Shown here: piece by piece, positions 1,240 to 22,640 of the stretch | How positions within the stretch are numbered: position 1 is the first letter of the stretch | Layout: the number at the start of each line of letters is the position of its first letter | Source of the DNA: Planctomycetales bacterium | Lineage (GTDB): Bacteria; Planctomycetota; SZUA-567 | Direction of reading: 5' to 3' | Assembly: GCA_025997475.1 (NCBI GenBank) | Contig: BNUQ01000023.1 | Span: 1 to 28,079, forward strand | Length of the DNA stretch: 28,079 nt | The notes under the pieces: generated by a model | Seen by the model: only the letters and a program-made list of their open reading frames with translations | Told to the model about the DNA's origin: nothing | Database searches by the model: none | Program-made: the position numbers and the translations under genes

Positions 1240-1324
1240 GCTCTTGCGGTAATCAATTGCCAATAAAGAAGTTATGGTGATTGCGACTTCCAGAAATGAC
1301 GATTGATGCGGCGGGACGGCAACG

Positions 1325-1390: not shown

Positions 1391-1774
1391 GAACAACAAC
1401 AATTGCTCCGGTTGCTTTTCCAACGGCGTCTTTTCTTTGCCCCAAAAAATTTCTTGCTTGCCGAATTGCCGGTCGGTTACCATCAGTAACCGCACTTGTC
1501 CGTCCGGCGGTAAATTTTTCTTGATAAAATTCCGCTCCGCCTCGCTCGACTCCTCGCTTCGATAATATCGCGCGTAAACCGAATACTGCAACATATCAAA
1601 CCCCTCGTCCAATAGCATTTTGCGGAAACGCGCGTAATCGCGGCGCTCCGCGCTGGTCAAGACCGGCAAGTCAAACAACGCAAACAGCCACACCGCTTGA
1701 TACTCCGATAAAACCGGACGCGGCGGCGAATGCCGCGAGACCGGCGTCCGCTTATTCCGGCTCCCTTTCCGCAT
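1388..1774 (-). CDS. cas2: CRISPR-associated endonuclease Cas2
   Basis: A 128-residue protein that partners Cas1 in the spacer-integration complex. The ferredoxin-like core is clear: LFALFDLP with the conserved aspartate at about residue 35, then RRDYARFRKMLLDEGFDMLQYSVYAR split over the first half, and LPPDGQVRLLMVTDRQF in the second. It is about 20 residues longer than the usual 100-110 because of a basic N-terminal tail (MRKGSRNKRTPVSR). The start is supported by GGAGG six bases before the ATG, although this places it 23 nt inside the end of cas1. Last gene of the cas9-cas1-cas2 operon. A downstream start is possible but has no comparable ribosome binding site. Confidence 0.95.
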   Translation of the reverse strand: MRKGSRNKRTPVSRHSPPRPVLSEYQAVWLFALFDLPVLTSAERRDYARFRKMLLDEGFDMLQYSVYARYYRSEESSEAERNFIKKNLPPDGQVRLLMVTDRQFGKQEIFWGKEKTPLEKQPEQLLLF

Positions 1775-5700: not shown

Positions 5701-6000
5701 CGGCAACAATCCCGCCGCTCGCAATCGCAAATAAAGAAAATCCAAACGCCGCGCCGCGCGATTATGCTGACGGCGAATCTGCCGCGCCATTCGGCGGGCA
5801 ACGCCGCGCGATTCTTCTTTGCCTTTTTCGAGTTCGCCATCGGAACCGGCTTCGAAAATCCGCGCGCCCAAATTAAGCAAACCCGTCGGCGTGAATTGCC
5901 CGTTGTCTTCGGCGACCGTAACCGCCGCCCAACCGACCGAATTACTGCCGAGGTCAAGACCTAACACATACGGATTGGCGAGAGTTGCGGCGTTTGTCAT
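2734..6000 (-). CDS. cas9: CRISPR-associated endonuclease Cas9, type II-C
   Basis: RNA-guided DNA endonuclease of 1088 residues, in the compact II-C size range. RuvC-I is VLGLDLGSNSVGWA with Asp16. The arginine-rich bridge helix follows (ARRMARQIRRQHNRAARRLD). RuvC-II is IRIELARELRKNRK with Glu549. The HNH domain has CPYCG at about 609, catalytic His630 in EVEHIIPFS, and CRACNQAKGN, so a zinc-type CxxC pair brackets the active site. RuvC-III is HRHHAIDAVV with His772 and Asp775. All catalytic residues are present, so it should be an active nuclease. A highly charged insert (DIEDEHEDGEDDKKKKEE) lies in the recognition lobe and SRRV is duplicated near the C-terminal part. I chose the ATG at 6000 because AAAGGAG sits 6 nt upstream. 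An in-frame ATG at 6036 would add 12 residues without a ribosome binding site. Confidence 0.98.
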   Translation of the reverse strand: MTNAATLANPYVLGLDLGSNSVGWAAVTVAEDNGQFTPTGLLNLGARIFEAGSDGELEKGKEESRGVARRMARQIRRQHNRAARRLDFLYLRLRAAGLLPPLKNAALEARAEGNKFWVDRAGAARVERPRERYQALKDLDQELQREAAALVETGEEKLLMTRLMYWLRAAALDKKLSPFAVGRALFHLAQRRGFLSNRKIDIEDEHEDGEDDKKKKEELGKVKAGIKELDDKMSAQHCRTLGELFLRFPDEERIRGRWTARAMYESEFEQIWQKQAEFHPGILTGELKRKIHRAIFRQRPLQSAANLIGECQFEKGRKRAPWALLAAQRFRYLQQLNNTEIQTKNDLKMRALTADERKIIVEQLENNGDLTFIKAKELLGQPKTTQFNYEAGGEKKFIGNRTAAKLVKIFGAERWRQLSANDKDAVIDDLRVTRQDEILAKHGCEKWGLTAEMAEKFKKLVLEDDYCALSRQALAKFLPELEKGERYGDLVKPLYGDRAADSAADVLPTVADALPALRNPTVARVFTELRRVVNALTARYGKPAVIRIELARELRKNRKAREQIWKKNRDQEDKRAGAGKSLLDEVGISEPNRDDIDKMLLYKEANKQCPYCGKIISVGEFTGGGIEVEHIIPFSISLDNSYLNKTIACRACNQAKGNRTPYQAFGHDAQRWYEIELRAQKFPGGKFNLKVQRLLAKDDPQLDDFSTQQLNDTAYAAKEAQKYLGLLYGADAKRKIQAARGGVTAFLRAEWGLNRVLNDGGDKKNRDDHRHHAIDAVVTALTDRRAMQTLSEAAVRALSERRRRFGAITEPWAGFLEEVRARTGEINVSRRVSRRVSGALHEATYYGERVETDEKGKEKIFTTARVPVHKLSAKDILSNETIIDPAVRLAVQTAFNRLPKPDPKLLENSAPYLTAKDGRKIPIRRVRTRFKQKVVSIGEAERQRHVITGNNHHAEIVAVLGADGKEIEREWKVVTMLEAYHRKKNKQPVIQRDHGASRKFLFSLSAGELVTLLDDNKQRDVFVCRCVSDGVLDFSENKDARKQKDIIAEGKGQTIKRWIRIQSKGALFARKIQKIIITPLGEIRTAND

Positions 6001-6049
6001 TTTTTCTCCTTTCGCAAACGGACTTGCTTTAAGCATATATTTTCACACA

Positions 6050-7611: not shown

Positions 7612-7743
7612 AATTAACAATTAACAATTAACAATTAACAATTAACAATGGCGGAGTTTGACGACTAAAAATCGCAGAGCGAAATTTTAATAATCAATCC
7701 TTCAATTGTTAATTTTTAATTGTTAATTGTTAATTGTTAATTT
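7612..7743. repeat. Heptamer inverted-repeat element A (AATTAAC x5 / GTTAATT x5)
   Basis: The left arm at 7612-7646 is five perfect tandem copies of AATTAAC. The right arm at 7708-7742 is five tandem copies of the reverse complement GTTAATT, one with a single change. The arms can pair into a stem of about 35 bp around a 56-nt core that starts GGCGGAGT (7650) and contains CGCAGAGCG. It starts 14 bp after the glgC stop. It is the cleanest of seven such elements in this window. It could act as a terminator hairpin, but this is not shown. Confidence 0.9.
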
Positions 7744-7811
7744 CGTCGTTGCCCCTGCCGACAAATAATGTCATTAACAACTGCGCGTCCCTCCCCAATT
7801 AACGGTGTCCC

Positions 7812-9824
7812 GTGAAAGCCCTCGCCCAAAAATTATTGCCGCTGACCTTATTGCTCGCCGCTTGCGGCGACCCGACCGACGCCGCGCGCGAAGCGCCGAA
7901 CAGCCGGTGGGTTGACCGCATCAATCCGAGCGACGCGGCGCGGCAACGGCGCGTGGGGCTTGCCGAAGGCGCGCGGGTTTATTTTGTCGCCGAAATGGAC
8001 GGGCGACGGTTCAGTTCCGGCTACACCACGCGGACGCGGAGCGTCTATAACGGCGTCCCCGCCCTCGTTACCGAAACCGAACAGCGCTATGAAATGTTAG
8101 GTCTGTCGCAACAGCGGTTGCAACAAGTCGATTACCGCAAGGTAATCGCCAACGCCGCGACGGGCGAGTCGTTGTATCTGACGGAAAACGTGGAGCGCGA
8201 CGGCGCGATGGAAACCCGCACCATCACCATCGACCGCGGGCGGGCGTTGTTTCGCACGTTGGACCGTCCCGAACAAAATTCCGAGATGGCGGTGCCGAGC
8301 GGCGTGTTGTTCGCCGTCACGCCGGACTGGATTTTGGCGCAAAAGCCGCAGGTCGGCAAAAAATACAGCGCGGCGATTCTTGACCGGAGCGAATTGCAAA
8401 TCGTCGCCGAAGAGGTCGAAATTCGCGACTTCGGACCGACCGACGTGTTGGGCGCGTCGCTCAATGTTTGGACGGTCGATATTCGGCGCGGCGAAAATTC
8501 GTTGCCGACGCGAATGATTTTTACGCAGGACGGCGCGCTCGTCAGTATGCAAAGCGACAATCTGAAAATGCGCATCGTGCCGCAACCGGAAGCGACGCTT
8601 GACTACGTTAAAATGGAGTCGGTGCGCTCGATGCCGGTTACGTTTCAATTGCCGGCGTGGGACAATTTCAACGCGCTGACCTATCGCCCGACGCCGGCGG
8701 AAAAGTGGCGCGAACTGTTGCCGGACGACGACCGTTATCAAAAATTCGACGGCAACGAACTGAAATTATTAAAAAACACGCCGGCGGTCGGGGACGCGAC
8801 TTTTCCGCTGGCGGTGCCGCCGGAATTGTTGCCGTTCTGCCGGCGCGGCGAAAACGTTTATCCCGACGAGCGGGAAATCGCCGACCGCGCGAAAGATATT
8901 GTCGGCGGCGAAAACCGCGTGTTGTCGGCGGTGGCGATGCTCGCGGGCTGGGTTTATCAAAACATCGCGCTCGACGAGTTTGAGCGCGACGACAGTCCGC
9001 TGACGACGATGCAACGGCGCGCCGGCGACGCGGCGCGGCAGGCGCGGTTGTTTGCCAGTTTGGCGCGGTCGCTGAATTTGCCGACGCGGTTGTGCGGTGG
9101 TTTGCTGATTATGCGCGACAACGCGACGCGCCACGTGTGGTGCGAAGTCAACATCAACGGGCGCTGGTTGCCGGTGGACCCGACGGTCAATCGCGTCGGC
9201 TTGCCGGCGGGTTATGTGTTGACGGAAGTCGAGCAGGACGGCAACGGCGTGCTGGCGAGTCCGTTCGCGTGGGCGATGCGCGACGGCGGCATCGGTTTGG
9301 AATTTGTGTCGGCGACGAAAAATTACACGGCGCCGGACGGCAAGACCGCGACGTTTGAATTGTTCCCGGAAGTCAAGAAAACTTACGTGGCGGTCGAAGG
9401 CAATTGGATTGCCAATTTGTATTGGGGCTTCTCGATTGTGAAGCCGGAAAATTGGCGCGGCAACATCAATTTGCAATCGGTTACGGTGGCGAGCGACGGC
9501 GACGAGGCGGTCATAAAAATCGAAGCGTTAAACAAGGTCTTCCCCTGCACGAAAGCGCAATTGGAAATGGTCGTCGGCAGTTTGCAGAGCGCGTTGAGCG
9601 GCTTCAAACTGTTAAGCAGTGATTTGGCGCGGTTCGGGGCGCGGCGCAATCCGGCGATGTATGCGGACTTTATCGCGTTGCAGGAAGGCGCGCGCCGCCG
9701 ATGCCAAATTTACGTCATTCCGCTCCGCGGCAGAAGTTACCGCGTAATGGTCTGGGCGCCGGCGGACGATTTCGAGAAATGGGAAACCGTCCTCAAAGAA
9801 ACGCTGGCGACGATAAGCATGTAG
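7812..9824 (+). CDS. Lipoprotein with a transglutaminase-like domain lacking the catalytic Cys
   Basis: 670 residues, GTG start (the only start after an in-frame TAA at 7800), no clear ribosome binding site. The N-terminus has a lipoprotein signal with lipobox LLAAC, so it is probably anchored in a membrane and exported. Residues 1-340 show no family I recognise. Residues about 380-470 match the transglutaminase-like core: AGDAARQARLFASLARSLNL, then TRHVWCEVNINGRWLPVDPT. His441 and Asp456 of the Cys-His-Asp triad are in place, but the cysteine of the usual GDC motif is Ala407 (GDA). It is therefore probably a non-catalytic, binding or structural version. The C-terminal 150 residues look like a separate globular domain. 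The role is unknown; it has no clear operon partner, since repeat elements lie on both sides. Confidence 0.75.
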   Translation: MKALAQKLLPLTLLLAACGDPTDAAREAPNSRWVDRINPSDAARQRRVGLAEGARVYFVAEMDGRRFSSGYTTRTRSVYNGVPALVTETEQRYEMLGLSQQRLQQVDYRKVIANAATGESLYLTENVERDGAMETRTITIDRGRALFRTLDRPEQNSEMAVPSGVLFAVTPDWILAQKPQVGKKYSAAILDRSELQIVAEEVEIRDFGPTDVLGASLNVWTVDIRRGENSLPTRMIFTQDGALVSMQSDNLKMRIVPQPEATLDYVKMESVRSMPVTFQLPAWDNFNALTYRPTPAEKWRELLPDDDRYQKFDGNELKLLKNTPAVGDATFPLAVPPELLPFCRRGENVYPDEREIADRAKDIVGGENRVLSAVAMLAGWVYQNIALDEFERDDSPLTTMQRRAGDAARQARLFASLARSLNLPTRLCGGLLIMRDNATRHVWCEVNINGRWLPVDPTVNRVGLPAGYVLTEVEQDGNGVLASPFAWAMRDGGIGLEFVSATKNYTAPDGKTATFELFPEVKKTYVAVEGNWIANLYWGFSIVKPENWRGNINLQSVTVASDGDEAVIKIEALNKVFPCTKAQLEMVVGSLQSALSGFKLLSSDLARFGARRNPAMYADFIALQEGARRRCQIYVIPLRGRSYRVMVWAPADDFEKWETVLKETLATISM

Positions 9825-9827
9825 AGG

Positions 9828-9914
9828 GCAATTAACAATTGTTAGCGGAGTGATTGTCAAAATTGCGCGAAGCGAATCTGAAAATCAAATCCCGAAATTT
9901 TTAATTTTAGAGTT
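9828..9914. repeat. Heptamer element B (degenerate)
   Basis: Starts 4 bp after the preceding stop codon. Only about one and a half AATTAAC units remain on the left and TTTTTAA-like units on the right. It shares the core with the other elements: AGCGGAGT (9844-9851), GCGCGAAGCG (9865-9874) and GAAAATCAAA. It looks like an eroded member of the family. Confidence 0.6.
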
Positions 9915-9957
9915 GTTTCCCAGCGCGGCGGCTCTACTTCAATAACGCGGCGGCTCC

Positions 9958-10091
9958 ATTCAATTGCCCCGCCCTTTAGCGCGTGGTCGGCGGGCAAAAA
10001 AAAGAAAGGGATTTGGTCCCCAATAAACCATTCGGCTAAAGCCGGTCATTTTCTAACGCTATCCCCGCCCTAAAGGGCGTGACAATTGAAT
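9958..10091. repeat. MITE-like element with inverted terminal repeats
   Basis: The left end ATTCAATTGCCCCGCCCTTT (9958 on) and the reverse complement of the right end (to 10091) agree at 18 of the first 20 positions and continue with TAG. The 134-bp element contains two more small palindromes, CGGCTAAAGCCG and GCCCTAAAGGGC. It has no coding capacity. The size and terminal inverted repeats suit a non-autonomous mobile element, but a target duplication was not clear. Confidence 0.55.
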
Positions 10092-10151
10092 AGAACATTA
10101 CCAAACGATATTTCTCCGTGTCCTCCGCGCCTCCGTGAGAAACAAAAAAAA

Positions 10152-10174
10152 GGTTGTCGAAAATTTCGATAACC
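10152..10174. promoter_or_regulatory. 23-bp palindrome upstream of gpsA
   Basis: GGTTGTCGAAA and TTTCGATAACC form an almost perfect palindrome (one mismatched pair), ending 19 bp before the gpsA start codon. It could be an operator or a small hairpin in the leader. There is no direct evidence for a function. Confidence 0.4.
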
Positions 10175-10193
10175 CTAAACCGGAATCAACGCT

Positions 10194-11195
10194 ATGTCGA
10201 ACGAAATTCACAACATCACGGTCTTAGGCGCGGGCGCGTGGGGAACGGCGCTGGCGCGGGTCGCGAGCATCCGCACGCACAACGTTACGTTGTGGGGACA
10301 CGACCGCGCTCATCTGGAAACGATGCGGCAAACGCGGGAAAATCAAAAATATCTGCCCGGCGTGTCCCTGCCGCCGCTGATGAATTACGAGCCGGATTTC
10401 GCGCGCGCCGTCGAAAATGCCGAACTGCTCATTTGCGCGATTCCGACGATTTATTTGCGCGCGGTGCTGGCGGAGCAACGCGGCACGGTCGGCGCCGAGG
10501 TCGGCGTCATTTCCGTAACCAAAGGCATCGAACAGGAAACGCTCAAACGCCCGACGGAAATCATCTCCGAATGTCTCGGCAGTAAGCGTCTCGGCGTGTT
10601 GTCGGGACCGTGCCACGCCGAAGAAGTGGGGCGCGATTGCCCGACCACGGCGGTCGTCGCGGCGAACGACGAGCGGTTGGCGCAGACCACGCTCGCGGCG
10701 TTGATTTTGCCGATGTTCCGGCTGTATCTCGGCAACGATATGTTGGGAATGGAAATCGCCGGCGCGTTGAAAAACGTGGTGGCGCTGACCGCCGGCGCGT
10801 GTTTGGCGCTGGACTTGGGCGACAACGCGATTGCGGCGATGTTGACGCGCGGCTTGGCGGAAATGACGCGGCTCGGCGTGGCGTTGGGCGCCGACCCCAA
10901 GACGTTCGCGGGCTTGGCGGGCTTGGGCGATTTGGTCGCGACGTGTTTTTCCAAACACAGCCGCAATCGCCAATTCGGTTACGACGCGGTGAAAAACAAC
11001 TCGAAAAATTTTGCGCTGACCTCGCGCCACTCGGTCGCCGAGGGATATTTTTCGGCGAAATCGGCTTACGACTTGGCGCAACGCCTCGGCGTGGAAATGC
11101 CGATTGTGCAACAAATCAATCGCGTGCTCTTCGCGGATTACGACCCGCGCCGCGCCGTGTTGGAACTGATGACGCGGGAAACAAAAAAAGAGTAA
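10194..11195 (+). CDS. gpsA: Glycerol-3-phosphate dehydrogenase [NAD(P)+]
   Basis: Reduces dihydroxyacetone phosphate to sn-glycerol 3-phosphate for phospholipid synthesis, in the cytoplasm. 333 residues, normal length. Rossmann motif GAGAWGTALA at 12-21. The family blocks SVTKGIE, SGPCHAEEV, ALKNVVALTAG (catalytic Lys193), GDNAIAAMLTRGLAEM, GLGDLVATCFSKHSRNRQFG and VEMPIVQQINRVLF are all present in order. The SGPCHAEEV form, instead of the more common SGPSFAEEV, is seen in some PVC-group enzymes as far as I recall. The start is supported by the position of the Rossmann motif; the ribosome binding site is weak. It ends just before heptamer element C, facing the flagellin gene. Confidence 0.96.
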   Translation: MSNEIHNITVLGAGAWGTALARVASIRTHNVTLWGHDRAHLETMRQTRENQKYLPGVSLPPLMNYEPDFARAVENAELLICAIPTIYLRAVLAEQRGTVGAEVGVISVTKGIEQETLKRPTEIISECLGSKRLGVLSGPCHAEEVGRDCPTTAVVAANDERLAQTTLAALILPMFRLYLGNDMLGMEIAGALKNVVALTAGACLALDLGDNAIAAMLTRGLAEMTRLGVALGADPKTFAGLAGLGDLVATCFSKHSRNRQFGYDAVKNNSKNFALTSRHSVAEGYFSAKSAYDLAQRLGVEMPIVQQINRVLFADYDPRRAVLELMTRETKKE

Positions 11196-11208
11196 TTAGA
11201 GAAAAATT

Positions 11209-11320
11209 TGAAAGTTGAGAGTTAAAAGTTGAATAGTGAAATTATTTTGAAAATGCGCGAAGTGAATCCAACCTTGAAACTCCATAATTTTTAATTCGTA
11301 ATTTTTAATTTTTAATTGTT
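11209..11320. repeat. Heptamer inverted-repeat element C
   Basis: The left arm at 11209-11243 has five 7-bp units (TGAAAGT, TGAGAGT, TAAAAGT, TGAATAG, TGAAATT). The right arm at 11286-11320 has five units (AATTTTT, AATTCGT, AATTTTT, AATTTTT, AATTGTT). The core contains GCGCGAAGTG (11255-11264). It fills the gap between the convergent gpsA and flagellin genes, so it may serve as a two-way terminator. Confidence 0.8.
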
Positions 11321-11323
11321 TTC

Positions 11324-12391
11324 TCACGCGCCGATTAGCGCCAAATAATCGCCGGCGTGTTGGTTTAAGGAATGAATCCCGCGCGTCGTTGCTTGCGATA
11401 AAATTTGCGCCGTGGTGTATTCGGTCATCGCCAGCGCGAAATCGGTGTCGGTCAGTTGACTTTCGATTTTCATCACGTTTTCAAGCGTCCCCGCCAACAC
11501 GTTGATATTGGAATACAACCCGTCCTGTTGCGCGCCAATCGCGGCACGGGAATGCGCCACTTCGGTAATCGCCTGCTCCACCACGGCGATTGCCGCTTCG
11601 GGATTGACATTCAACGCCGCCTTGCCGCCGCTAAATAAATCCGCAAGCGAATAAGCGTCCGGCGACGGCGCGCCTAACGCCAATGCCGGAAATTCCCCGC
11701 CCAATTTGCTGACGCCAATCTCGCCGTTTTTGTTGGGCGCAAGCAACGCGCCGCCGCTCGCCGCGTCCAAATCCTCGGTCGCGATTTCCGCCGCTCCGGC
11801 GTCCGCCGGTGTCGCGTCAGTTTCCGCCGCCGCGCTCGCGCTCAATTTGCCGCCGGCGATTTTTTCCGCCAAATCCGCGGCGGAAATTCGCCCTAATTTT
11901 TCCAAGCCGACGCTCGGCAATTCATAACTGTCGCCGCCGCCGCTGTTCGCGAGTTGTAAATCGCCGCCGCCACTGCCGTTGAGCAAATTTTTTCCGGCGT
12001 AAGCGGTCGTCTCGGCGATTTTTTGAATGGAACTTAAAATGCCGTTCATCGCGATTTGATTGGCTTCGATTTGTGATTTTGAAGTGATACCGTGGTTGGC
12101 GGAAGCGAGCGCAAGTTCGCGCGCGCGGTTGAGCGGACCGGCGATGCTCGCGAGCGCGCCGTCCGCGACGCTCAACCTATTGACGGTTTCTTCGCTGTTT
12201 TGCAAGGCGCGTTGCGTGCCGGCAATTTGACTTTTCAGCGCGTCCGCCATCACCATACTCGCCGGCGCGTCGGCGGCGGCGTTGAGACGCGAGCCGGTCG
12301 AAAGTTCCTGCAACGCTTTATTTGCGCGATGCGAATTTTTTTCTAACGCGTTAATCGCGCCGAGCGTGGCGCGGGTAATGTTGCCCAACAT
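11324..12391 (-). CDS. Flagellin
   Basis: Filament subunit of the bacterial flagellum, exported by the flagellar type III apparatus. 355 residues. The N-terminal D0/D1 region is typical: NITRATLGAINALEKNSHRANKALQ followed by ELSTGSRLNAAADAPASMVMAD. The C-terminal D1/D0 region contains ALAMTEYTTAQILSQATTRG and ends SLNQHAGDYLALIGA. Between them lies a variable, alanine-rich domain of about 150 residues. I chose the ATG at 12391 because GGGAGG lies 5 nt upstream; an earlier in-frame ATG at 12439 has no such site and would spoil the conserved N-terminus. A sigma-28-like promoter lies upstream. No other flagellar gene is in the window. Confidence 0.92.
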   Translation of the reverse strand: MLGNITRATLGAINALEKNSHRANKALQELSTGSRLNAAADAPASMVMADALKSQIAGTQRALQNSEETVNRLSVADGALASIAGPLNRARELALASANHGITSKSQIEANQIAMNGILSSIQKIAETTAYAGKNLLNGSGGGDLQLANSGGGDSYELPSVGLEKLGRISAADLAEKIAGGKLSASAAAETDATPADAGAAEIATEDLDAASGGALLAPNKNGEIGVSKLGGEFPALALGAPSPDAYSLADLFSGGKAALNVNPEAAIAVVEQAITEVAHSRAAIGAQQDGLYSNINVLAGTLENVMKIESQLTDTDFALAMTEYTTAQILSQATTRGIHSLNQHAGDYLALIGA

Positions 12392-12413
12392 AAAGACCTC
12401 CCTGAACGGCACC

Positions 12414-12434
12414 GGCGGATAATCCGTATCCGCC
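12414..12434 (-). promoter_or_regulatory. Hairpin in the flagellin 5' leader
   Basis: An 8-bp perfect stem (GGCGGATA/TATCCGCC) with a 5-nt loop lies between the predicted transcription start (near 12460) and the ribosome binding site at 12397-12402. It could affect translation or mRNA stability. A function is only inferred. Confidence 0.45.
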
Positions 12435-12466
12435 CGCAATCACTCGCTTCAACTCGTATCCGGGCA

Positions 12467-12494
12467 TTATCGGACGCTGAAAGCGCATCTTTAA
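12467..12494 (-). promoter_or_regulatory. Sigma-28 (FliA)-like promoter for flagellin
   Basis: On the minus strand TAAAGATG (12494-12487) and TCCGATAA (12474-12467) are separated by 12 bp. The enterobacterial sigma-28 consensus is TAAAGTTT-N11-GCCGATAA, so 6/8 and 7/8 bases match with spacing one base too long. Its position about 75 bp before the flagellin start codon is suitable. Confidence 0.55.
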
Positions 12495-12495
12495 T

Positions 12496-12608
12496 GAAAA
12501 ATTGAAAGTTAAGAGAGTGGAGTTTTATTTTTAAATATGCGCGAAGCGCAACTTCTGCTTTTCCCTTTCAACTTTCAACTTTTAACTTTTAACTTTTAAC
12601 TTTTCCCT
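12496..12608. repeat. Heptamer inverted-repeat element D
   Basis: The right arm at 12567-12608 is TTTCAAC x2, TTTTAAC x3 and TTTTCCC. The left arm from 12496 is a weaker set of units related to AAAGTTA. The core has GCGCGAAGCG at 12540-12549. The right arm runs into murJ, whose stop codon at 12591-12589 lies within it. Confidence 0.8.
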
Positions 12609-14277
12609 CTCCCCTCTTTTTCCGCCAACGCGCGAAGAAATTCTCGTAATCCTCGGCGCAGAACGTCGAAGCGAAGATGCCATACGCCGCGATGCCGCCG
12701 GCGACGCCGGCGACGACGCGCTCCAAACGGTAAATAAATTCCGGTCCGTAAGGCACGCTCCGCACGATGTAATAGGTTACCACCGCCATCCCGACCGCCG
12801 AAATCAACATTCCGAAAGTTCCGCTTTTACTTTTGCCGTTTTCCGTATCGGCGACCGGCGGCAGTTTTTTCGCCAGCGCCCGCCACAAGCGGAGCGCGTT
12901 CAAACACGCGCACAGCATCGTCGAAAGCGCCAAACCCGCCTCGCCCAAATGCGGACTTAATCCCGCATAGTCAAGATGATAATACTGACGATATAAATCC
13001 GGCGCGAACGGCAATAATAAATTGCCGACCAAATTGACGCCCACCGTTTGCAGGGCGATACGCACCGGCGTGCGGTAATCGCCGAGCGCGTAAAACGCGC
13101 GGGTGAACAGATGAATGGCGCCGAACAGCGGCAACGCCGCCGCCAAGCAAACCAGCACCGCCGTCGTCCGATACACCGCCGCGTCCGTAAAACGCAAGTC
13201 CGGCGCCTGATACAAACATTCGACCAACGGCTTCGCCAACACGATTAAACCCGCCGCCGCCGGCAACATAATAAACCCCAAACGGCGGAGCGATTCCGTA
13301 ACCGTTTGCCGCAAGCCGGCGAGGTCGTTTTTCGCCGCCAGCGCCGCCAACGTCGGAAACGCCGTCGTCGCCGCCGCCAAGGCGAACACGCCCAGCGGCA
13401 ATTGCATCAGCCGGTTGCCGAGAAATAAATACGTCGTCGCGCCGGCGGCGGCAAAACCAAAATAACCGAGCGACAAACCATACGCGAGCAAATTATCCAA
13501 CAGCGAATTCAGTTGCACGACGCCCAAGCCGACCGCCGCCGGTAAAAAATTGTGCCAGATTTTTTTAAGCGTTGCATCGACGGCAAACGTCGGTTTCAGC
13601 CCCACGCCGCGCGCGCGAATGACCGGATATTGAATAAGCAGTTGCGCCGCGCCCGCCGCCGTAACCGCCGTCGCCGCCAACTGCGCAAGCGTTACCAACT
13701 GGTCGGCGGTCAGGTTATTGGCGAATTCGCCGCCGCGATAAGTCGCCGCCAAAACCACGCCGATAATAAAAAGATTGAGCAAACACGACATCGCCGCCGG
13801 TAACACGAACACTTTAAGGCACTGCAAAATCGCGCCGAGAATCGCCGAACAGCAAATCAGCGCGGCAAACGGCAAAGTGACGACCAACAGAATTAGCGTC
13901 AAATGCCACTGCGCGCCGATGTCCGCGAGCGACGCGGCGAAGAAACAGCCGAGCGAGCCGAGGAGCGTGATGCCGCCGACGCCGACGAGTAGCCAAGTGA
14001 CGACGGCGCCGGCGAGACGGGCGCGTTGCGAATTATCGGCGCGGACAAATTCGGGGATAAACGCGGCGGTGAGCGCGCCTTCGCCGAGCAGATTGCGGAG
14101 CAGATTCGGGAGCGTGAACGCAAAATAAAAAGCGTCGAGCATCCACGCGGCGGCGCTGAAACACCACACCAACGCCACGTCGCGGAGCAACCCCAATACG
14201 CGGCTGACCATAATCGTCAAACTGACGAACAGCGATTGCCGCGCGAGCGTCGCCGCGGAGGAAATTTCGGAGGACAT
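12589..14277 (-). CDS. murJ: Lipid II flippase MurJ (MviN)
   Basis: Moves lipid II across the cytoplasmic membrane during peptidoglycan synthesis (MOP exporter superfamily). 562 residues with about 14 hydrophobic segments. The N-terminal signature is clear: SRVLGLLRDVALVW, AFYFAFTLPNLLRNLLGEGA and TAAFIPEF. Later blocks such as GNRLMQLPLGVFALAAATTAFPTLA and RAFYALGDYRTPVRIA are also typical. The C-terminal tail is hydrophilic and ends KRGEGKVKS. The last four residues and the stop are encoded by heptamer element D. There is no clear ribosome binding site; the start is chosen because the first transmembrane block follows at the usual distance. It lies downstream of the coiled-coil gene on the same strand, separated by element G. 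Confidence 0.93.
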   Translation of the reverse strand: MSSEISSAATLARQSLFVSLTIMVSRVLGLLRDVALVWCFSAAAWMLDAFYFAFTLPNLLRNLLGEGALTAAFIPEFVRADNSQRARLAGAVVTWLLVGVGGITLLGSLGCFFAASLADIGAQWHLTLILLVVTLPFAALICCSAILGAILQCLKVFVLPAAMSCLLNLFIIGVVLAATYRGGEFANNLTADQLVTLAQLAATAVTAAGAAQLLIQYPVIRARGVGLKPTFAVDATLKKIWHNFLPAAVGLGVVQLNSLLDNLLAYGLSLGYFGFAAAGATTYLFLGNRLMQLPLGVFALAAATTAFPTLAALAAKNDLAGLRQTVTESLRRLGFIMLPAAAGLIVLAKPLVECLYQAPDLRFTDAAVYRTTAVLVCLAAALPLFGAIHLFTRAFYALGDYRTPVRIALQTVGVNLVGNLLLPFAPDLYRQYYHLDYAGLSPHLGEAGLALSTMLCACLNALRLWRALAKKLPPVADTENGKSKSGTFGMLISAVGMAVVTYYIVRSVPYGPEFIYRLERVVAGVAGGIAAYGIFASTFCAEDYENFFARWRKKRGEGKVKS

Positions 14278-14291
14278 AATTTTTTACCCGT

Positions 14292-14399
14292 GGGCAGTGG
14301 ACAGTGGTCAGTGAGCAGTTGGCAGTGAAATGGTGGGCAAAGAGTCGGGAATAAAAATGCTCTTACTGTCCACTGCTCACTGTCCACTGCCCACTGCTT
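14292..14399. repeat. Heptamer inverted-repeat element G (NNNCAGT x5 / ACTGNNN x5)
   Basis: The left arm at 14292-14326 is GGGCAGT, GGACAGT, GGTCAGT, GAGCAGT, TGGCAGT. The right arm at 14365-14399 is ACTGTCC, ACTGCTC, ACTGTCC, ACTGCCC, ACTGCTT. The core of 38 nt does not resemble the other elements, but period, arm length (35 bp) and inverted layout are the same. It fills the gap between the coiled-coil gene and murJ, and the former ends inside the right arm. Confidence 0.88.
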
Positions 14400-16095
14400 T
14401 CCGCAGTTTTTCTTTGAGGAAATTTTTGCTCGCGGCGGACGCTTCTTTGACGCTCGCTATTTCGTCGCGCAACGCCGCGAGTTGCCGCGTCAATTCGTCG
14501 TTGCGCCGTTGCTCGGCGTCGCGCCGTTGTTCGTCGCGCTCGTCGCGCCGTTTTTGCGCCGCCGCTTCCGTTGCGTCTTGCGTCAGTTCCTGCCGCAACG
14601 CCTGCAATTCCGCGTCGTGGCGGTCGCACGCCGCCGCCAATTCCGCGCGGACTTCGTTCCGTTGTGCCGCCGCCGCGCCGAGTTCGGCTTGCGCCGCTTC
14701 CAACGCGGCTTGCAACGCCGCGTTTTTTTCGCGATAAAAATTTTTCGTCGCGACGCTCGCCGCGCTTTGCTCCTGCATTTGCGCCGCCGTCGTTTCCCAA
14801 CGGCGCAAATGGTTGACCTCGTTTTCAAGCGCCTGCCGGCGGCGCGTCGTTTCCTGAAAAGTCGCCGTCAATTCGCGCAACGCCGCGCGTTCGCCGTCCA
14901 ATTCCGCCTGCCGCTCGCGCTCGCGCTCGGCTTCTTTTTGCCGGTTGGCGGCGAAGCGGTTTTCGTTCTCGGCGAGGAGCGCCGTCGCGGTTTCCAAGTC
15001 AAACCGCAAACGCTCAATTTGCGCGCGCCGCGCCTCTTTTTCGCGCTCGGCGCTCGCGCTCTGTTCGCGCAGTTGCGCCTGTAACTCTTCGATTTGAGTG
15101 AGCGCCGTCTGCCGCGCCCGCGCCGTTTCCTTTTCATTTTCTTGCCATTGCGCCCGCGTCGCGTCCCCGTCGCGCGTCGCCTGCCGCAATTCGTCAAGCA
15201 ACTGCAAACGGTCTTCGCGGGCGCGCGCCAGCGCGGTGAGAAAATCCCGCTCCCGCCGCTCGGCGGTCGCGAGTTCGGCGGCGGCGCGATGATTTTCGGC
15301 GGCGAAATCGGCTTGCAGGGCGCGGGCTTTTTCGCGGTCGGCGGCGCTTTGCCGTTCGGCGGCGGCGAGTTGACGGCGATGTTTTTCCTTCTGCCGCAAA
15401 AGTTCGGCGAGTTCTTCGTTGAGCAACGCGATGCTCCGGTCGCGTTCGGCAAGTTGCGCGGCGGCGGCGGTCAAATCGCGCGCCAATTGCTCGCGCTGTT
15501 GCGCGAATTTTTCCACGGCGGCGCGATGCTCGGCGCGCCATTGCGCCAATTCCGCGCCGGTCGCGGTCGCCTCGCGCTCGGTCTGGGCGAGGATTTTTTG
15601 CGCGGCGTCCGCGGCGTTCCGCGCCGCTTGCAATTCCTGTTCGCGGCGGCACCCATCGTCCCGCAATTCCGCCGTTTCTTTTTGCCGTTGCGCGATTTCC
15701 TTTTTCGCCGCGAGCAGTTCGGCGGCGACCGCGTCGGCGGCGCGCCGTTCTTGTTGGGCTTGGGCGCGTTGTTGCTCGGCGAGCGTCAGCCGTTCTTTTT
15801 CCTGTTTGATGAAGCGGTCGCGCTCTTGTTGGACTTGTTCCTGCAAGGCGGCGGCGCGGCGGCGGAGCGCGGCGATTTCATCTTCGCCGCGCGCGCGCGC
15901 GGCGACTTCGGCGGCGAGCCGCGTTTGCCCTTCGCGCTCCTGCCGTTGCGCGTGCGCGGCTTGTTGTTGAAAATGGTCGGCTTCGACGCCGGCGGCGCGG
16001 AGACGTTCGGCGACCCGTTCCCGGTCGGCAAGCAAAGCGTCGCGCTCTTGGCGCAAGTCGTCTAATTCGTCCAACAGGACGGCGAGGTCAGTCAT
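14377..16095 (-). CDS. Long coiled-coil protein, function unknown
   Basis: 572 residues, almost entirely Ala/Arg/Glu/Gln/Leu with heptad patterning, for example LLDELDDLRQERDALLADRE near the N-terminus, and no membrane segment or signal peptide. This indicates one very long alpha-helical coiled coil, probably cytoplasmic and structural or a scaffold. I do not recognise a specific family; SMC-like ATP-binding motifs are absent. The extreme composition gives long open frames on other strands, which I take to be shadows. The last residues (AVGSGQ) and the TGA stop are encoded inside heptamer element G, so the original C-terminus may have been replaced. It precedes murJ on the same strand with a 99-bp gap. 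Confidence 0.7.
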   Translation of the reverse strand: MTDLAVLLDELDDLRQERDALLADRERVAERLRAAGVEADHFQQQAAHAQRQEREGQTRLAAEVAARARGEDEIAALRRRAAALQEQVQQERDRFIKQEKERLTLAEQQRAQAQQERRAADAVAAELLAAKKEIAQRQKETAELRDDGCRREQELQAARNAADAAQKILAQTEREATATGAELAQWRAEHRAAVEKFAQQREQLARDLTAAAAQLAERDRSIALLNEELAELLRQKEKHRRQLAAAERQSAADREKARALQADFAAENHRAAAELATAERRERDFLTALARAREDRLQLLDELRQATRDGDATRAQWQENEKETARARQTALTQIEELQAQLREQSASAEREKEARRAQIERLRFDLETATALLAENENRFAANRQKEAERERERQAELDGERAALRELTATFQETTRRRQALENEVNHLRRWETTAAQMQEQSAASVATKNFYREKNAALQAALEAAQAELGAAAAQRNEVRAELAAACDRHDAELQALRQELTQDATEAAAQKRRDERDEQRRDAEQRRNDELTRQLAALRDEIASVKEASAASKNFLKEKLRKAVGSGQ

Positions 16096-16174
16096 AGCGG
16101 CACTCGTTAATTTTTTCGTAAAGGCGCGTATCTTATCCGAACGGCGGCAAAACGAAGCGGATTTTTTGCGCGTT

Positions 16175-16256
16175 GCTTGCGCGAAAAGATAATCAATAGA
16201 GAATAAATTTGAAAATCAAACTCCACGATTTTTAATTTTTAATTTGTAATCGTTCT
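16175..16256. repeat. Heptamer element E (right half only)
   Basis: The right arm at 16227-16254 is GATTTTT, AATTTTT, AATTTGT, AATCGTT. A core with GCGCGAA (16179) and TTTGAAAATCAAACTCC (16208 on) matches elements B and F. No left arm is visible. It lies upstream of the plus-strand gene at 16285, between divergently transcribed genes, so it is not a terminator there. Confidence 0.65.
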
Positions 16257-16284
16257 TTCCGCCGGTCGTCATAAGGAGAAACCG

Positions 16285-17271
16285 ATGAGTGAAAATTATT
16301 CGCAATTGCCGGCGGCGTTGGCCTCGCCGGCGCGCTTGCCGCAAAAAAAATGGTTTAACCCCCTCTTTGTCGGCGCGTTAATTTTAGCGATTGTCCTTGC
16401 GGCGCTGATTCTCCACAACGAGCATCGCGAACGCTCCGCCTTGCACCTGTTGCCGCTCGACACCGACGCTTATTTTCTCGCGCCGCTGGCGGACACGCCG
16501 ACCGCCGACCGCGCGTTGTGGGACAAATTATGCGCGTCGTTTTTCGGCGAACTGTCGCCCGCCGACCGCGCGATGCTGACGGCGTCCGTTACCCATTACG
16601 GCGTCGCGCGACTGCCGCAGGGCGAGGCACTAATCGTCAAATGCGGCAATGCGTGGGACGTGAAACGGTTGTTCACGGCGGCGCGGTTCGCGGCGCAACC
16701 GTCGGGTTCGCCGAACAGTTACACCCTGACCGTCGGCGGCGACACGCTGGCGTTCGCGCTGTTGAAACCCTACGCCGTTTTCGCGCCGAACCGCGACGCG
16801 GTCGCGACGGTGGTTGACTGTTGGCGCGAGGGGCAAAAATCGCTCGGACAAGTCGCGCCGAAATTTCATTACGCCAATCGCGCCGAATTTTACGCGCGTC
16901 CGCACCGGTCGTTGTTTCCCGATAATTTCCGCGAACTGTGGCGCGTGGCAAGCGACCTGCCGGAAAATTCCGGCTGGTTCGGCGAAATCGAATGGCGCGG
17001 CGACAGTTTTGTCGCGCAAGGCGCGGTGGTGAATTTACTGCCACCGGCGCCGGCGCCCGGCTTCTGGCATTATTTGTGGTGGACGTTCGTTATTATCGTC
17101 GCCGTCGTCATCGGTCTGCCGGTGTTGTTCTTGCTGACGGTGTTCGGCTTGGCGGGCTGGTTTCATTTCACCTCGAAATGGCGCGGCATAAAATCGCCGC
17201 CGGTCGTGCCGGAACTGCCGCCGCTTTCGCCGGAATTGCAAGAAGATTTGAAGAGCAGAGTTGAAAGTTGA
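16285..17271 (+). CDS. Two-TM protein of unknown function
   Basis: 328 residues. One transmembrane helix at about 24-44 (NPLFVGALILAIVLAALIL) and a second, long hydrophobic stretch at about 262-290 (WWTFVIIVAVVIGLPVLFLL and on). The roughly 215 residues between them contain no motif I know and would be periplasmic if the N-terminus is inside. The C-terminal tail is proline-rich (PPVVPELPPLSPELQ). AAGGAG lies 6 nt before the ATG. The last codons and the TGA stop fall in the first unit of heptamer element F. It lies in the same orientation as the SPFH-GYF gene 190 bp downstream and may work with it at the membrane, but this is only a guess. Confidence 0.75.
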   Translation: MSENYSQLPAALASPARLPQKKWFNPLFVGALILAIVLAALILHNEHRERSALHLLPLDTDAYFLAPLADTPTADRALWDKLCASFFGELSPADRAMLTASVTHYGVARLPQGEALIVKCGNAWDVKRLFTAARFAAQPSGSPNSYTLTVGGDTLAFALLKPYAVFAPNRDAVATVVDCWREGQKSLGQVAPKFHYANRAEFYARPHRSLFPDNFRELWRVASDLPENSGWFGEIEWRGDSFVAQGAVVNLLPPAPAPGFWHYLWWTFVIIVAVVIGLPVLFLLTVFGLAGWFHFTSKWRGIKSPPVVPELPPLSPELQEDLKSRVES

Positions 17272-17416
17272 AAGTTTAGAGTTGCGAGCGCACGAAGCGC
17301 GGCGGGAAAAATTCCCCGCTACGGAGGGCGGAATGATTGGTCAAAATCTCGCGAAGCGATTTTTGAAAATTAAACTCCGCCGTTTTTAATTTTTAATTCT
17401 TAATTTTTAATTGTTC
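17258..17416. repeat. Heptamer inverted-repeat element F
   Basis: The left arm at 17258-17285 is GAGTTGA, AAGTTGA, AAGTTTA, GAGTTGC. The right arm at 17382-17416 is GTTTTTA, ATTTTTA, ATTCTTA, ATTTTTA, ATTGTTC. The core is itself palindromic: GGCGGAAT (17327-17334) and ACTCCGCC (17374-17381) flank TCGCGAAGCGA, which folds as a 4-bp hairpin with a GAA loop. It gives the best view of the family core. Confidence 0.82.
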
Positions 17417-18740: not shown

Positions 18741-20918
18741 TTATTTCTCTTCCCCGTTATCGAGCGCCGCCAACATTTCCTGCACGTTTTCGAGCGGCAA
18801 ACCAATCACATTCGACACACTGCCGTAAATCGCCGTTACAAATTCGCCGGCGGCGCCCTGCACCGCATACCCGCCCGCGCGGTCTTGCCACTCGCCGGAT
18901 TCGATATAATTCTCAATATCCGCGTCCGTCAACTCCCGCCAATGCACCTCGGTCATCGCGAAATCGGACACCTCCCGATTCTGCGCTTTGTCGATGATGA
19001 CGACCGCCGTGTTGACCAAATGTTTCGCGCCGGAGAGCGTCCGCAACATTCGCCGCGCGTCGTCCGCGTCGCGCGGTTTGCCGAAAATTTCGTGGTCTTG
19101 GGCGACCACCGTGTCCGCGCCGATGACGAGCGCCGCGCGCGAGGCGTCTATCGCCACTCGCGTCGTTTTCGCCCGCGCCAGCGACATCGCGATTTCCGCC
19201 GCCGACATTTTCAGGTCAAACTTTTCGTCGATATTCGCCGGCGCGACGGCGAAGTCGGTGTGCCGCAAGAGCAAGCCCAGTAAGTCGCGCCGTTGCGGCG
19301 ACTGACTGGCTAACACGATTTCCCGCCGCCGATACGGCAGATAATACGCCACGACCGTGCCGGCGGCGAGGTCGCCGAGCCGTTGCGTGCGGCGCGTCAC
19401 GCACACCGCAACGAGCGCGACTAAATACCACAAATTTAAGCCGCCGAACGACAGCGGGAAAAAATCGACGCCGCGCAACAAGTTGCGGATGAGAATTTGT
19501 CGCTTATACGGCTTGCCGCCGTCGAGGGCGCGGACGCGCATCTTGAACAGCGCCTTGCCGGGCGTCGTGCCCCAGAACATTTCGGCGAGCGCGCTATACA
19601 CCACATTCGCGCCGAGCCAAATGAAAAACACCGGCATCGAAAACGCCAGCGTGATTTCGCCGAGCGTCAGCAAATAACCGACGGGCGCGGCTAAACAAAC
19701 GCCGCCGTCCACCGCAAACGCCAGCGTCCGGTCGGACAGCCGCGCCAAACCGCCGATGCGAATGAGGCGAAGCGCCGTCAGCGTGGCGGCGGCTTCGTGG
19801 TTGCCGCCCGCCGCGTCGCTCGCGGCGCGTTTTTCGACGTGGCGCATCGCCCAGCCGCGCAACAAAAACATCGTCAGCAAAACGCCGCACATTCCCCACA
19901 ACAAAATCCGCGTCCACGCCCATTCGTCGCCGGCTCCGCCCGCGAGCGGCGTGGCGACGACGCGCCCCAAATCGTCGGGGAATTTCGGCGCGCGAATAAA
20001 ATGGATGCCGTTCCAACTCGACCGCGCCACCGTCAACCCGTCCGCGCCCGCCGCGAGCGTCAGCGCCAGCGGCGGCGTTTGATACACGGCGTCGGCAAAC
20101 GGCGCGAGCGCAAGTTGCGTCCAGCGCCCGTTTTCATATTGCGACAAAGAAATTTTACGGTCGCTCTCCTGCGCCAATAAAATTCCGTTGCCCGCCGGAC
20201 ACACGGCAAAAATTCCGTCTTGGTCGTTGCGCGGCGGCGCCGGTAAAAATTCCCAAGCGTCGTCAACCAGCATCGCGGCTTGCCAACCGGCGAGAACTTT
20301 ATCGCCGCCGCCCGGTCGCCACGCGAGCAATAATTTCCCGTCGCAAGTGGTCATCTCCAAGCGCGGCGACGGACGGAAAAACGGCAACGCGAGCGCGGTC
20401 TTTTCCCAGCGCGGCGCCGTCGCGTCTTCCGGCGCCGGACGCAAGCGATACAACGCGAGTTGCCGCGCGGCGTCGGCGGCGAGCGCGTAAAAATCGCCGT
20501 TCGCGACGACGGTGGCGGCGAATAACGTCAGGTCGTTTTGCGGCGGCACGAGCGCGATGGGCGGGGCGCGGTCCACGCAGGCGAAAATCGCGCCGTCGGC
20601 AAAGACCAGCGTCAGCGCGGCGGGCGAGGCGTCGAGGACTAAATTGCGGGAGATGCGGCGACCGTCGGTCGCGCTGGCGGCGGACAGCGCCGCGGAGCAA
20701 GCGGCGACGACGCGCCCGTGATACGCCGGCGACGGCGAGCCGGACGCGGCGAACAGCGACGAGTCGTAAATGACGAAAGTGCCGTCGGCTTGCCGGTCGT
20801 TGACCACGACTTTGACGCCGTCCGGCAAGGCGGCAAGCAACGCGACGCGCGGATAAATTTCGCCGCAACCGCTCGCCCACACCGCCGCCACCGCCAGAAT
20901 AAAAACGAGTTTTTTCAT
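18741..20918 (-). CDS. Fusion: lipoprotein-like region, RDD membrane domain and Maf nucleotide pyrophosphatase
   Basis: 725 residues in one frame. The N-terminus is a signal sequence ending in a weak lipobox (AVWASGC). Residues up to about 330 look like a beta-rich, possibly propeller-like exported domain. A membrane helix follows (ILLWGMCGVLLTMFLLRGWA). Residues about 385-530 are an RDD domain: LARLSDRTLAFAVDGGVCL, then FWGTTPGKALFKMRVRALDG and RTQRLGDLAAGTVV. From 532 to the end is a complete Maf domain: IVLASQSPQRRDLL (from Ile534), IGADTVVAQDHEIFGKP, LSGAKHLVNTAVVI, and DRAGGYAVQGAAGEFV with GSVSNVIGLPLENV. Maf proteins hydrolyse nucleoside triphosphates and act in the cytoplasm. There is no linker between RDD and Maf. 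An internal GTG start at 19316 could also give a free Maf. Confidence 0.85.
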   Translation of the reverse strand: MKKLVFILAVAAVWASGCGEIYPRVALLAALPDGVKVVVNDRQADGTFVIYDSSLFAASGSPSPAYHGRVVAACSAALSAASATDGRRISRNLVLDASPAALTLVFADGAIFACVDRAPPIALVPPQNDLTLFAATVVANGDFYALAADAARQLALYRLRPAPEDATAPRWEKTALALPFFRPSPRLEMTTCDGKLLLAWRPGGGDKVLAGWQAAMLVDDAWEFLPAPPRNDQDGIFAVCPAGNGILLAQESDRKISLSQYENGRWTQLALAPFADAVYQTPPLALTLAAGADGLTVARSSWNGIHFIRAPKFPDDLGRVVATPLAGGAGDEWAWTRILLWGMCGVLLTMFLLRGWAMRHVEKRAASDAAGGNHEAAATLTALRLIRIGGLARLSDRTLAFAVDGGVCLAAPVGYLLTLGEITLAFSMPVFFIWLGANVVYSALAEMFWGTTPGKALFKMRVRALDGGKPYKRQILIRNLLRGVDFFPLSFGGLNLWYLVALVAVCVTRRTQRLGDLAAGTVVAYYLPYRRREIVLASQSPQRRDLLGLLLRHTDFAVAPANIDEKFDLKMSAAEIAMSLARAKTTRVAIDASRAALVIGADTVVAQDHEIFGKPRDADDARRMLRTLSGAKHLVNTAVVIIDKAQNREVSDFAMTEVHWRELTDADIENYIESGEWQDRAGGYAVQGAAGEFVTAIYGSVSNVIGLPLENVQEMLAALDNGEEK

Positions 20919-21289: not shown

Positions 21290-21366
21290 TGGTGGACGAT
21301 ATTGGACTCGAACCAATGACCTTCTGCTTGTAAGGCAGACGCGCTAACCGACTGCGCTAATCGTCC
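21290..21366 (-). tRNA. tRNA-Val (anticodon TAC)
   Basis: Full cloverleaf on the minus strand: acceptor GGACGAT/ATCGTCC, D stem GCGC/GCGC, anticodon stem TCTGC/GCAGA with loop CTTACAA, T stem ATTGG/CCAAT with loop TTCGAGT, discriminator A and an encoded CCA. 77 nt including CCA. Confidence 0.96.
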
Positions 21367-21427
21367 GATGGCGGGAAGGGTTGACCGATGCTTGGCGCGC
21401 GCCAAAAACGCGAGCGCGAAAAAGGTG

Positions 21428-21502
21428 TGGCTACCCCGGAGGGACTCGAACCCCCGAAAACAGAACCAAAATCTGTTGTGTTACCAATTACACCACGGGG
21501 TA
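21428..21502 (-). tRNA. tRNA-Gln (anticodon TTG)
   Basis: Full cloverleaf on the minus strand: acceptor TACCCCG/CGGGGTA, D stem GTGT/ACAC, anticodon stem ACAGA/TCTGT with loop TTTTGGT, T stem GGGGG/CCCTC with one wobble and loop TTCGAGT, discriminator G and an encoded CCA. 75 nt including CCA. It lies 61 bp from tRNA-Val and the two may be co-transcribed. Confidence 0.95.
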
Positions 21503-22552: not shown

Positions 22553-22640
22553 ATAATTTATGGCGTTTGATTTTTATATTTTTGTGATTGTTAAATAACG
22601 AACTTCATCTTTGCCAATTTTGAATGAAAGGTATTTGGTC

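Follow-up and report, generated by a model that had tools for sequence, protein, structure and literature searches.

How can seven intergenic places of one bacterial contig share an inverted design when the 7-nt units that build it differ from place to place? We addressed this question in a stretch of 28,079 nucleotides from a Planctomycetales bacterium (contig BNUQ01000023.1 of assembly GCA_025997475.1, positions 1 to 28,079 of the forward strand; hereafter, the window), in which the seven elements are termed A to G. A reading made from the letters alone (the sequence-only reading) had described them and proposed that their arrays were made or converted by copying in 7-nt steps. Our analysis partly confirmed this observation and partly supported its interpretation. 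We propose, with confidence just short of even, that elements A to G belong to a population of short hairpins scattered throughout the genome, each consisting of a heptamer array, a core, and an inverted array. These may resemble miniature inverted-repeat transposable elements (MITEs) or repetitive extragenic palindromic (REP) doublets forming hairpins (REPINs), reshaped by slippage and recombination.

Heptamer arrays of the window

The window arrays were located with Tandem Repeats Finder (TRF), and folding was scored as z against 200 shuffles, treating the sequence as single-stranded DNA. All seven intergenic places carried repeats where they had been described (Table 1). All 8 period-7 tracts of the window fell within elements A to G. 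Periods 5, 8, 10, 11, and 12 were represented by no tract, and periods 6 and 9 by one and two tracts, respectively, which lay outside the elements. Period, inversion, and arm length were kept while the units differed, as had been noted, and element B indeed retained only remnants of its arms. The labels E, F, and G had been shifted by one: the NNNCAGT arrays sit in E (14290-14397) rather than G, the TTTTTAA right arms belong to C, F, and G rather than C, E, and F, and E, thought to keep the right arm only, has both arms, F being the element reduced to a right arm and half a core.

Two elements folded end to end as fully complementary hairpins, namely A at z -10.7 and E at z -7.1, and D folded marginally (z -1.7; 9 of 200 shuffles equally good). 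The arms of C and G are mismatched, the left one (AAAGTTG or AGTTGAA type) and the right one (TTTTTAA type) being built from different heptamers. Folding of B, C, and F was no better than that of shuffles, and G at full length showed no excess either (z -0.8; 46 of 200 shuffles folded equally well). End-to-end folding was seen in 2 of the 7 elements, marginally in a third, and not in the other 4; genome-wide, arm class rather than folding was counted.

Abundance and anatomy in the genome

The genome of the window is a 2.39-Mb draft of 169 contigs, of which we sampled 868,079 bp in 43 stretches including the window (2 chosen for array matches, 2 for Y1 transposase genes, and the remainder by contig number). 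It was compared with a sister genome of the same genus (G001; about 100 contigs; 722,690 bp sampled, including one 2,811-base contig reading as N and a few overlapping contig ends). Among named records, GpsA of the window was closest to two metagenome-assembled genomes of Planctomycetota (43% and 42% identity), with one of Oscillospiraceae in third place (43%), which makes the source a probable planctomycete. The GpsA proteins of the two genomes are 98% identical, and the mean DNA identity was 92.8% over 154 matches, each of at least 250 bp and at least 85% identity. Genes were called with a custom codon-usage script, not a standard tool, which gave 620 genes.

The elements are not rare. The sample contained 382 tracts of period 7, as against 5, 19, 2, 33, 1, 5, 19, and 1 for periods 5, 6, 8, 9, 10, 11, 12, and 13, respectively, and G001 contained 432, as against 5-48 for other periods. 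Nor does random intergenic DNA reproduce them: 349 of the tracts were intergenic, whereas ten order-2 Markov simulations gave 0 and ten order-5 simulations gave 0-4, tracts rather than inverted pairs being counted in the simulations. Of 542 intergenic regions measuring 20 bp or more, 232 contained an element; 32 of the 273 elements lay mostly within genes predicted by the script. The backwards-read control of the pattern searches was uninformative for AATTAAC because this unit nearly equals its own reversal.

Adjacent tracts are strongly paired. Among neighbours within 200 bp, 100 of 117 pairs shared a unit in inverted orientation, compared with 14.8% of random pairs; in G001, the corresponding values were 128 of 165 and 14%. 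The units were mainly AATTAAN, GAGTTNA, and AAAGTTR, and we grouped the arms into six classes of our own definition (these three, CAGTGNN, AGTTGGT, and the minority class GGGAANA), counting AAAGTT and GAGTT separately although they are one base apart. Left and right arm agreed in class in 116 of 137 elements and in 131 of 149 in G001, as in terminal inverted repeats. Furthermore, the purine-rich strand ran inward from both sides (RY) in 253 of 284 two-arm elements, the others being YR (3), YY (17), and RR (11).

Between the left array and the inverted right array lies a core of approximately 40-60 bp. The AATT and GAGTT classes have a common core, an imperfect palindrome of the form GGARTTW...GCGAAGCG; a GCGAAGCG-like motif was found in 44 of 58 AATT and 29 of 30 GAGTT elements, and in 66 of 78 and 41 of 47, respectively, in G001. 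The sequence GCGAAGC forms a DNA mini-hairpin of unusual stability. Among the 25 best paralogous pairs listed, a few of which are overlapping contigs of one assembly, similarity spanned arms and core and mostly stopped in or at the arm ends. Of 618 outer ends, 62 had AGAGC no more than 16 bp away (background 0.4%), and at 45 of these it directly abutted the array. In the AATT class, the match between an arm and its own partner exceeded all 1000 permutations in both genomes.

Gene context

The elements were distributed over tandem, divergent, and convergent gene pairs (165, 37, and 33, respectively) without orientation bias, such intergenic regions numbering 392, 77, and 73. In tandem pairs, they lay near or over the upstream stop codon, at a median of a few nucleotides. 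The left arm of G runs over the stop codon that ends the open frame 16285-17271. Positions near stop codons might suggest structures at gene ends kept by selection, such as bidirectional terminators, mRNA-protecting hairpins, or three-frame stops. The very stable hairpins of A and E fit such a role, and so does the single element of another genome, G003, which surrounds a terminator-like hairpin. We consider it unlikely, as tandem, divergent, and convergent regions were occupied alike, folding of B, C, F, and G was not beyond chance, the contents of the sites turn over (see below), and stops in all frames were present in 52% of arms compared with 59% of unit-permuted arms. Terminators at the 3' ends of genes were rejected on the lack of orientation bias. 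A stop-codon trap, in which three units may close all frames because 7 is not a multiple of 3, was rejected as a selected property because the unit-permuted arms closed all frames more often.

Change at orthologous sites

An orthologue in the G001 sample was found for 83 of the 273 elements and not for 190; 80 could be excised, giving 78 distinct sites. Element C was left out of this comparison because the G001 contigs part at that place. Heptamers were kept at 69 of the 78 sites and not at 9. The unit classes were disjoint at 18 of the 69 sites, 5 of these being the one-base AAAGTT/GAGTT step. Cores could be aligned at 27 sites, with the same orientation at 18 and flipped at 9. Element A is among the latter: 52 of its 54 core positions matched the reverse complement in G001 and 13 of 54 matched the forward strand.

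Of the 18 sites at which the core was shared and ran the same way, one (C2:2294) showed a clear change of unit throughout an arm, and a partial change in place was seen at two sites (C5:33024 and C3:27802). These sites lend a little weight to the conversion of units in place that had been proposed. By eye, the remaining class changes accompanied a change of the core, namely replacement of the whole element or nesting. Nesting was likewise recognized by eye in element E, where G001 has an AATT-type element inside CAGT arms, at the inner AAAGAG...GCTCTT stretch (14339-14364), and in others. At three further window sites, G001 has a CAGT-type array with other palindromes (B), a remnant only (D), and a different palindromic repeat (F).

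Arm lengths tended to change in 7-nt steps. At same-orientation sites, 7 of 36 arms were unchanged in length, and 12 of the 23 changes of at least 4 nt were exact multiples of 7 (p ~2e-5); with both orientations pooled, the count was 13 of 34 (p ~5e-4). This excess partly supports the 7-nt steps of the sequence-only reading, flipped sites being an exception (see below). In addition, identical units clustered in the genome of the window (619 switches vs 691 expected; 0 of 200 shuffles as low), and the two genomes differed in their unit spectra. AAAGTTG (61 vs 6 in G001), AAAAGTT (24 vs 3), and AAGAATT (27 vs 0) were more numerous in the genome of the window, AAAAATT (24 vs 81) and AAAAGGG (4 vs 28) in G001, and AACAATT was alike (111 vs 117).

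We suggest that non-autonomous elements resembling MITEs or REPINs settled long ago in intergenic sites and inserted into one another, their arms acting as hypervariable terminal inverted repeats. Copying that slips in 7-nt steps would let arrays grow, shrink, and spread new unit types. Recombination between the two arms, or a hairpin re-copying itself, might flip the core and keep the AATT-class arms matched, and ectopic exchange together with nested insertion could change the class of a whole element at a fixed site. The pair of genomes offers dozens of orthologous sites with arm-length change, core flips, and class replacement; therefore, the process is measurable and testable in a laboratory strain.

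One further site differed in another way. Near G000:C9:21028 (G000 being the genome of the window), that genome has an AAAGTT element, and G001 (C13) has approximately 2.3 kb containing GGGA arrays and two open frames, one of 647 aa that by eye looks sulfatase-like and one of 134 aa that looks kinase-like. The difference amounts to gene loss or gain at a heptamer site.

Distribution in other bacteria

Exact (AATTAAC)3 was found at 168 places in the genome of the window, 96 in G001, and 1 in G003, and at none in 13 other genomes of the family; stretches from five of these 13 (91,066 bp) held no period-7 tract. Within the phylum, 5 of 392 genomes carried it. In 1.32 Mb from other bacteria, comprising 80 named GpsA loci, we counted 7 tracts of period 7, 5 of period 6, 3 of period 9, 1 of period 8, and 0 of period 5; heptamers are therefore not abundant everywhere.

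The design recurred around other cores. G016, of another family in the same order, had 23 period-7 tracts in 180 kb, compared with 0-2 for other periods (6 of its 20 stretches were picked because they contain a pattern match), and its similar inverted arms surround different cores, the hairpins CTTTAGC/GCTCTACGAGC. AATTRAC repeated three times occurred at 37 places in G396 and 6 in G397, the genomes of two Oscillospiraceae metagenome-assembled genome (MAG) records (L014 and L015), where inverted arms of AATTGAC, CAGTTGA, and CAGTGGA enclose other cores; two such hairpins were seen in G396, 4 of whose 5 stretches were picked for a pattern match. Of adjacent pairs, 4 of 5 in G016 and 4 of 5 in G396 had the inward purine polarity. 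A Prevotellaceae genome (G404; record L080) had 11 places of AATTRAC x3, and its displayed arrays (L263 and L266) are of AATTAAT/AATTAAC, close together, in the same direction and not inverted. The other 11 of the 14 genomes behind named records had no AATTRAC x3. The recurrence of this design, around other cores, both in two families of a single order and in Oscillospiraceae MAGs suggests that the process is shared and not a quirk of one lineage.

Origin of the elements

Linkage to a reverse transcriptase or to a REP-associated tyrosine transposase (RAYT) had been raised by the sequence-only reading. No RVT_1 match was found in the genome of the window (84.6% complete) or in G016, and G001 gave one weak match (30.1 bits; C14:19927-20277) within a 1026-aa open frame. 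Genes of the Y1 transposase (PF01797) numbered 2 in the genome of the window, 1 in G001, 5 in G039, and 2 in G404, with a weak match in G016, split over two pieces of a single frame; G003 (which has one element), G396, and G397 yielded none. Y1 genes were also present in G004, G006, G007, G011, and G012, all without (AATTAAC)3; of these, G004, G006, and G007 were scanned, in single stretches, for any period-7 tract. This distribution, together with the RVT_1 searches, left a RAYT or reverse-transcriptase link unsupported.

In the genome of the window, the RAYT-like Y1 gene at G000:C10:25583-25924 (L135 and L141) lies inside an AATT element, with its own CCCCACGCTTTAGCGTGGGG palindromes on the flanks, and within a further repeat ending GTGTTACGCG...CGCGTAAC. 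Heptamer arrays resemble landing pads on which other elements settle. The other Y1 gene of that genome and that of G001 had no period-7 tract within 900 bp on either side.

Several results weigh against dispersal by transposition followed by slippage and recombination. No cleanly empty site was seen among the 78 compared; hence, no insertion event was shown. Flanking direct repeats of 1-6 bp were at the level of shuffled pairings (n = 284). No mobilising enzyme was identified in the searches for RVT_1 and Y1, which did not extend to transposase families beyond PF01797. The core motif was found in 1 of 24 elements (approximately 3 by eye) of the AAAGTT class, which is expanded in the genome of the window, and the middles of this class are diverse while the arms are alike, a pattern at odds with simple copying of one element. 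The match between partner arms was modest in GAGTT (5 of 1000 permutations as high) and not beyond chance in AAAGTT (165 of 1000) or in GAGTT of G001 (849 of 1000). Multiples of 7 made up only 1 of 11 length changes at flipped sites, and the unit order of G001 showed no slippage blocks (834 switches vs 828; 143 of 200 shuffles as low). Finally, both assemblies are fragmented, and flips between inverted repeats can be misassembled, though arms of approximately 40 bp are short for that.

Part of this evidence would suit passive growth, in which hairpins near gene ends gain heptamer arms by slippage and palindrome correction without transposition, 7 nt reflecting the footprint of a polymerase. 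A slippage hypothesis of this kind is cited for heptamers in a study of Xanthomonas (PMC4692102). Similar arms around other cores in G003, G016, and G396, the diverse AAAGTT middles, and the multiple-of-7 changes at same-orientation sites are all consistent with it. The shared cores, the common outer AGAGC, and the nested copies point instead to dispersal of the element as a unit, and slippage alone predicts neither a single polarity (253 vs 3) nor similar heptamers across phyla. We regard passive growth as possible but doubtful.

Ordinary MITEs of a DDE transposase, with heptamer-rich terminal inverted repeats, would likewise explain inverted arms, AAGAGC-like outer ends, and dispersed copies with a shared core. 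Such elements should leave target-site duplications, of which we detected no signal, although erosion is possible; repeats of 7 bp flanked 3 of the 284 elements as against 0.6 by chance. This origin appears very unlikely.

The polarity invites a different thought, that a dedicated machinery adds ARTKNNN-type heptamers to 3' ends, such as those of breaks or hairpins; ends joined afterwards would yield convergent arrays with the purine strand inward, much as in fused telomeres, and the unit would be set by a template that differs between species. It would account for the fixed polarity here, in G016, and in G396, the similar AAAGTT arms around diverse middles, the genome-wide species-specific unit spectra, the lack of target duplication, and the element near C9:21028 where G001 has open frames. 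The arrays mix unit types and are not copies of one template, common descent explains the polarity equally well, and the RVT_1 searches yielded no candidate enzyme; of the explanations weighed here, we find this the least probable. We think it only slightly less improbable that one such machinery, spread horizontally, writes heptamers of the form A-A/G-T-T/G plus three variable bases, purine inward, onto hairpin or break ends in unrelated bacteria. If true, this would explain why heptamers are so abundant between bacterial genes, which has so far had no explanation.

We retain, as the most probable of these readings, the dispersed hairpin whose transposition would be followed by slippage and recombination. 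The elements are not filed as MITEs or REPINs because there is no signal of target duplication, no RVT_1 match in the genome of the window, and a Y1 gene both with and without arrays. The complete elements resemble foldback elements; in arrangement, the paired ones correspond to the convergent heptamer pairs known from Xanthomonas.

Comparison with known repeats

The repeat kind is known in parts, and its cause is unexplained. Short tandemly repeated repetitive (STRR) heptanucleotides of cyanobacteria are tandem heptamers between genes; we know of no description of them as paired arms around a core. As with STRR and simple sequence repeats (SSR), the 7-nt units here occurred far above chance and mainly between genes. 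REPINs are short, intergenic, non-autonomous hairpins in many copies that are associated with RAYT transposases, GGAG being a tetranucleotide of REP guides. The present elements resemble them in their many short intergenic hairpin cores, as counted by motif, which read GGAG 5' of the hairpin, and differ in the heptamer arms and in the Y1 gene, which is not consistently present.

The sequence-only reading knew of no paired inverted heptamer arrays; convergent pairs had in fact been published for Xanthomonas, in which GGGAATC arrays form 70 and 75 such pairs in two genomes (Rehm et al. 2015, PMC4692102). The heptamer pairs here vary this described theme. In both cases, tandem intergenic heptamers lie near the upstream gene and converge on opposite strands (253 of 284 here), length and sequence vary between related species, and links to mobile elements are generally absent. 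Xanthomonas has one G-rich class of interest for G-quadruplexes, whereas the six classes here are mostly AT-rich and their units are mainly not of the quadruplex type GGGANTN. The two main classes here, unlike the Xanthomonas arrays, surround a common core, and orthologous sites show inverted cores, nesting, and the replacement of one class by another.

A stem of 7-nt repeats with class replacement is also found in P6b of the Nostoc trnL intron, where class II (NNTGAGT) was repeatedly replaced by class I (TDNGATT) (PMC4476775); this is a single group I intron locus, compared with hundreds of mainly intergenic ones here. TAACTGA repeats of Beggiatoaceae, cyanobacteria, and Bacteroidetes (MacGregor 2015, PMC4679880) are likewise intergenic tandem heptamers, patchy over phyla, with indels between two strains mostly in 7-nt increments. 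They differ in being direct (169 sets plus one indirect repeat in the main genome) and mostly immediately upstream of start codons. Galileo, a foldback-type transposon of Drosophila (PMC3573991), has long, internally repetitive, length-variable terminal inverted repeats, and arm sequence is exchanged among its copies; it is larger and eukaryotic, and its P-superfamily transposase is known, whereas none was identified for the elements here. Heptanucleotide elements of Geobacter metallireducens include 49 with four units and 15 sites with five (PMC2700814), and a 2018 survey ranks heptamers first in abundance among intergenic tandem repeats, with no function known for them (PMC6344855). In the open-licence literature, to which the search was confined (subscription papers being outside its scope), we found no elements with heptamer arms whose cores flip or whose class is replaced between orthologous intergenic sites, nor the combination of interchangeable arm classes, conserved core, inversion, nesting, replacement, and the same design elsewhere.

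Coordinates and other features of the window

Table 1 Parts of elements A to G, in window coordinates
Feature	Position	Strand	Description
A, left arm	7612..7649	+	5.4 x AATTAAC; TRF 100% matches
A, core	7650..7703	+	GGAGTTT... with TCGCAGAGCGA hairpin
A, right arm	7704..7742	-	5.6 x AATTGTT/AATTTTT, inverted
B, left-arm remnant	9829..9841	+	CAATTAACAATTG
B, core	9845..9894	+	contains GCGCGAAGCG
B, right-arm remnant	9895..9912	-	
C, left arm	11204..11233	+	AAAGTTG type; TRF 78% matches
C, core	11234..11284	+	GCGCGAAGTG at 11255-11264, plus AAACTCC
C, right arm	11285..11317	-	TTTTTAA type, not complementary to left arm
D, left-arm remnant	12502..12516	+	TTGAAAGTTAAGAGA
D, core	12517..12558	+	GTGGAGTTTTATTTTTAAATATGCGCGAAGCGC..., of the kind that accompanies GAGTT arms
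D, right arm	12565..12604	-	CTTTCAA/CTTTTAA
E, left arm	14290..14327	+	CAGTGGG type, 5.4 units
E, inner AAAGAG...GCTCTT stretch	14339..14364	unstranded	
E, right arm	14365..14397	-	inverted CAGT type
F, half core	16208..16226	+	TTTGAAAATCAAACTCCAC
F, right arm	16228..16250	-	TTTTTAA type
G, left arm	17259..17284	+	AGTTGAA type
G, inner palindrome-bearing stretch	17288..17328	unstranded	GGGAAAAATTCCCC
G, core	17327..17381	+	GGCGGAATGATT...GCGAAGCGATT...AAACTCCGCC
G, right arm	17383..17412	-	TTTTTAA type

Beside element B lies a member of a second palindromic repeat family (9952-10096; CAATTGCCCCGCC...GGCTAAAGCC...), similar copies of which recur in both genomes. Its Rfam match, to a microRNA, was below the gathering threshold, as were all other matches in the Rfam scan apart from two tRNAs. 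These are tRNA-Val and tRNA-Gln (21290-21502, minus strand).

Elsewhere in the window, a compact type II system of clustered regularly interspaced short palindromic repeats (CRISPR) was recognized at 349-6036, with an array of the 36-bp repeat ATTGGAACTTGTGGACAGTCGCCGCCCAGATACAAT, cas2, cas1, and a Cas9-like frame of 1100 aa. A single frame of 725 aa (18741-20918) fuses RDD and Maf domains. At 22611-24132, a 341-aa AAA_21/AAA_15 ATPase frame overlaps a 167-aa frame without a Pfam match; certain defence or toxin-antitoxin loci made up of two genes are organized in a similar way.

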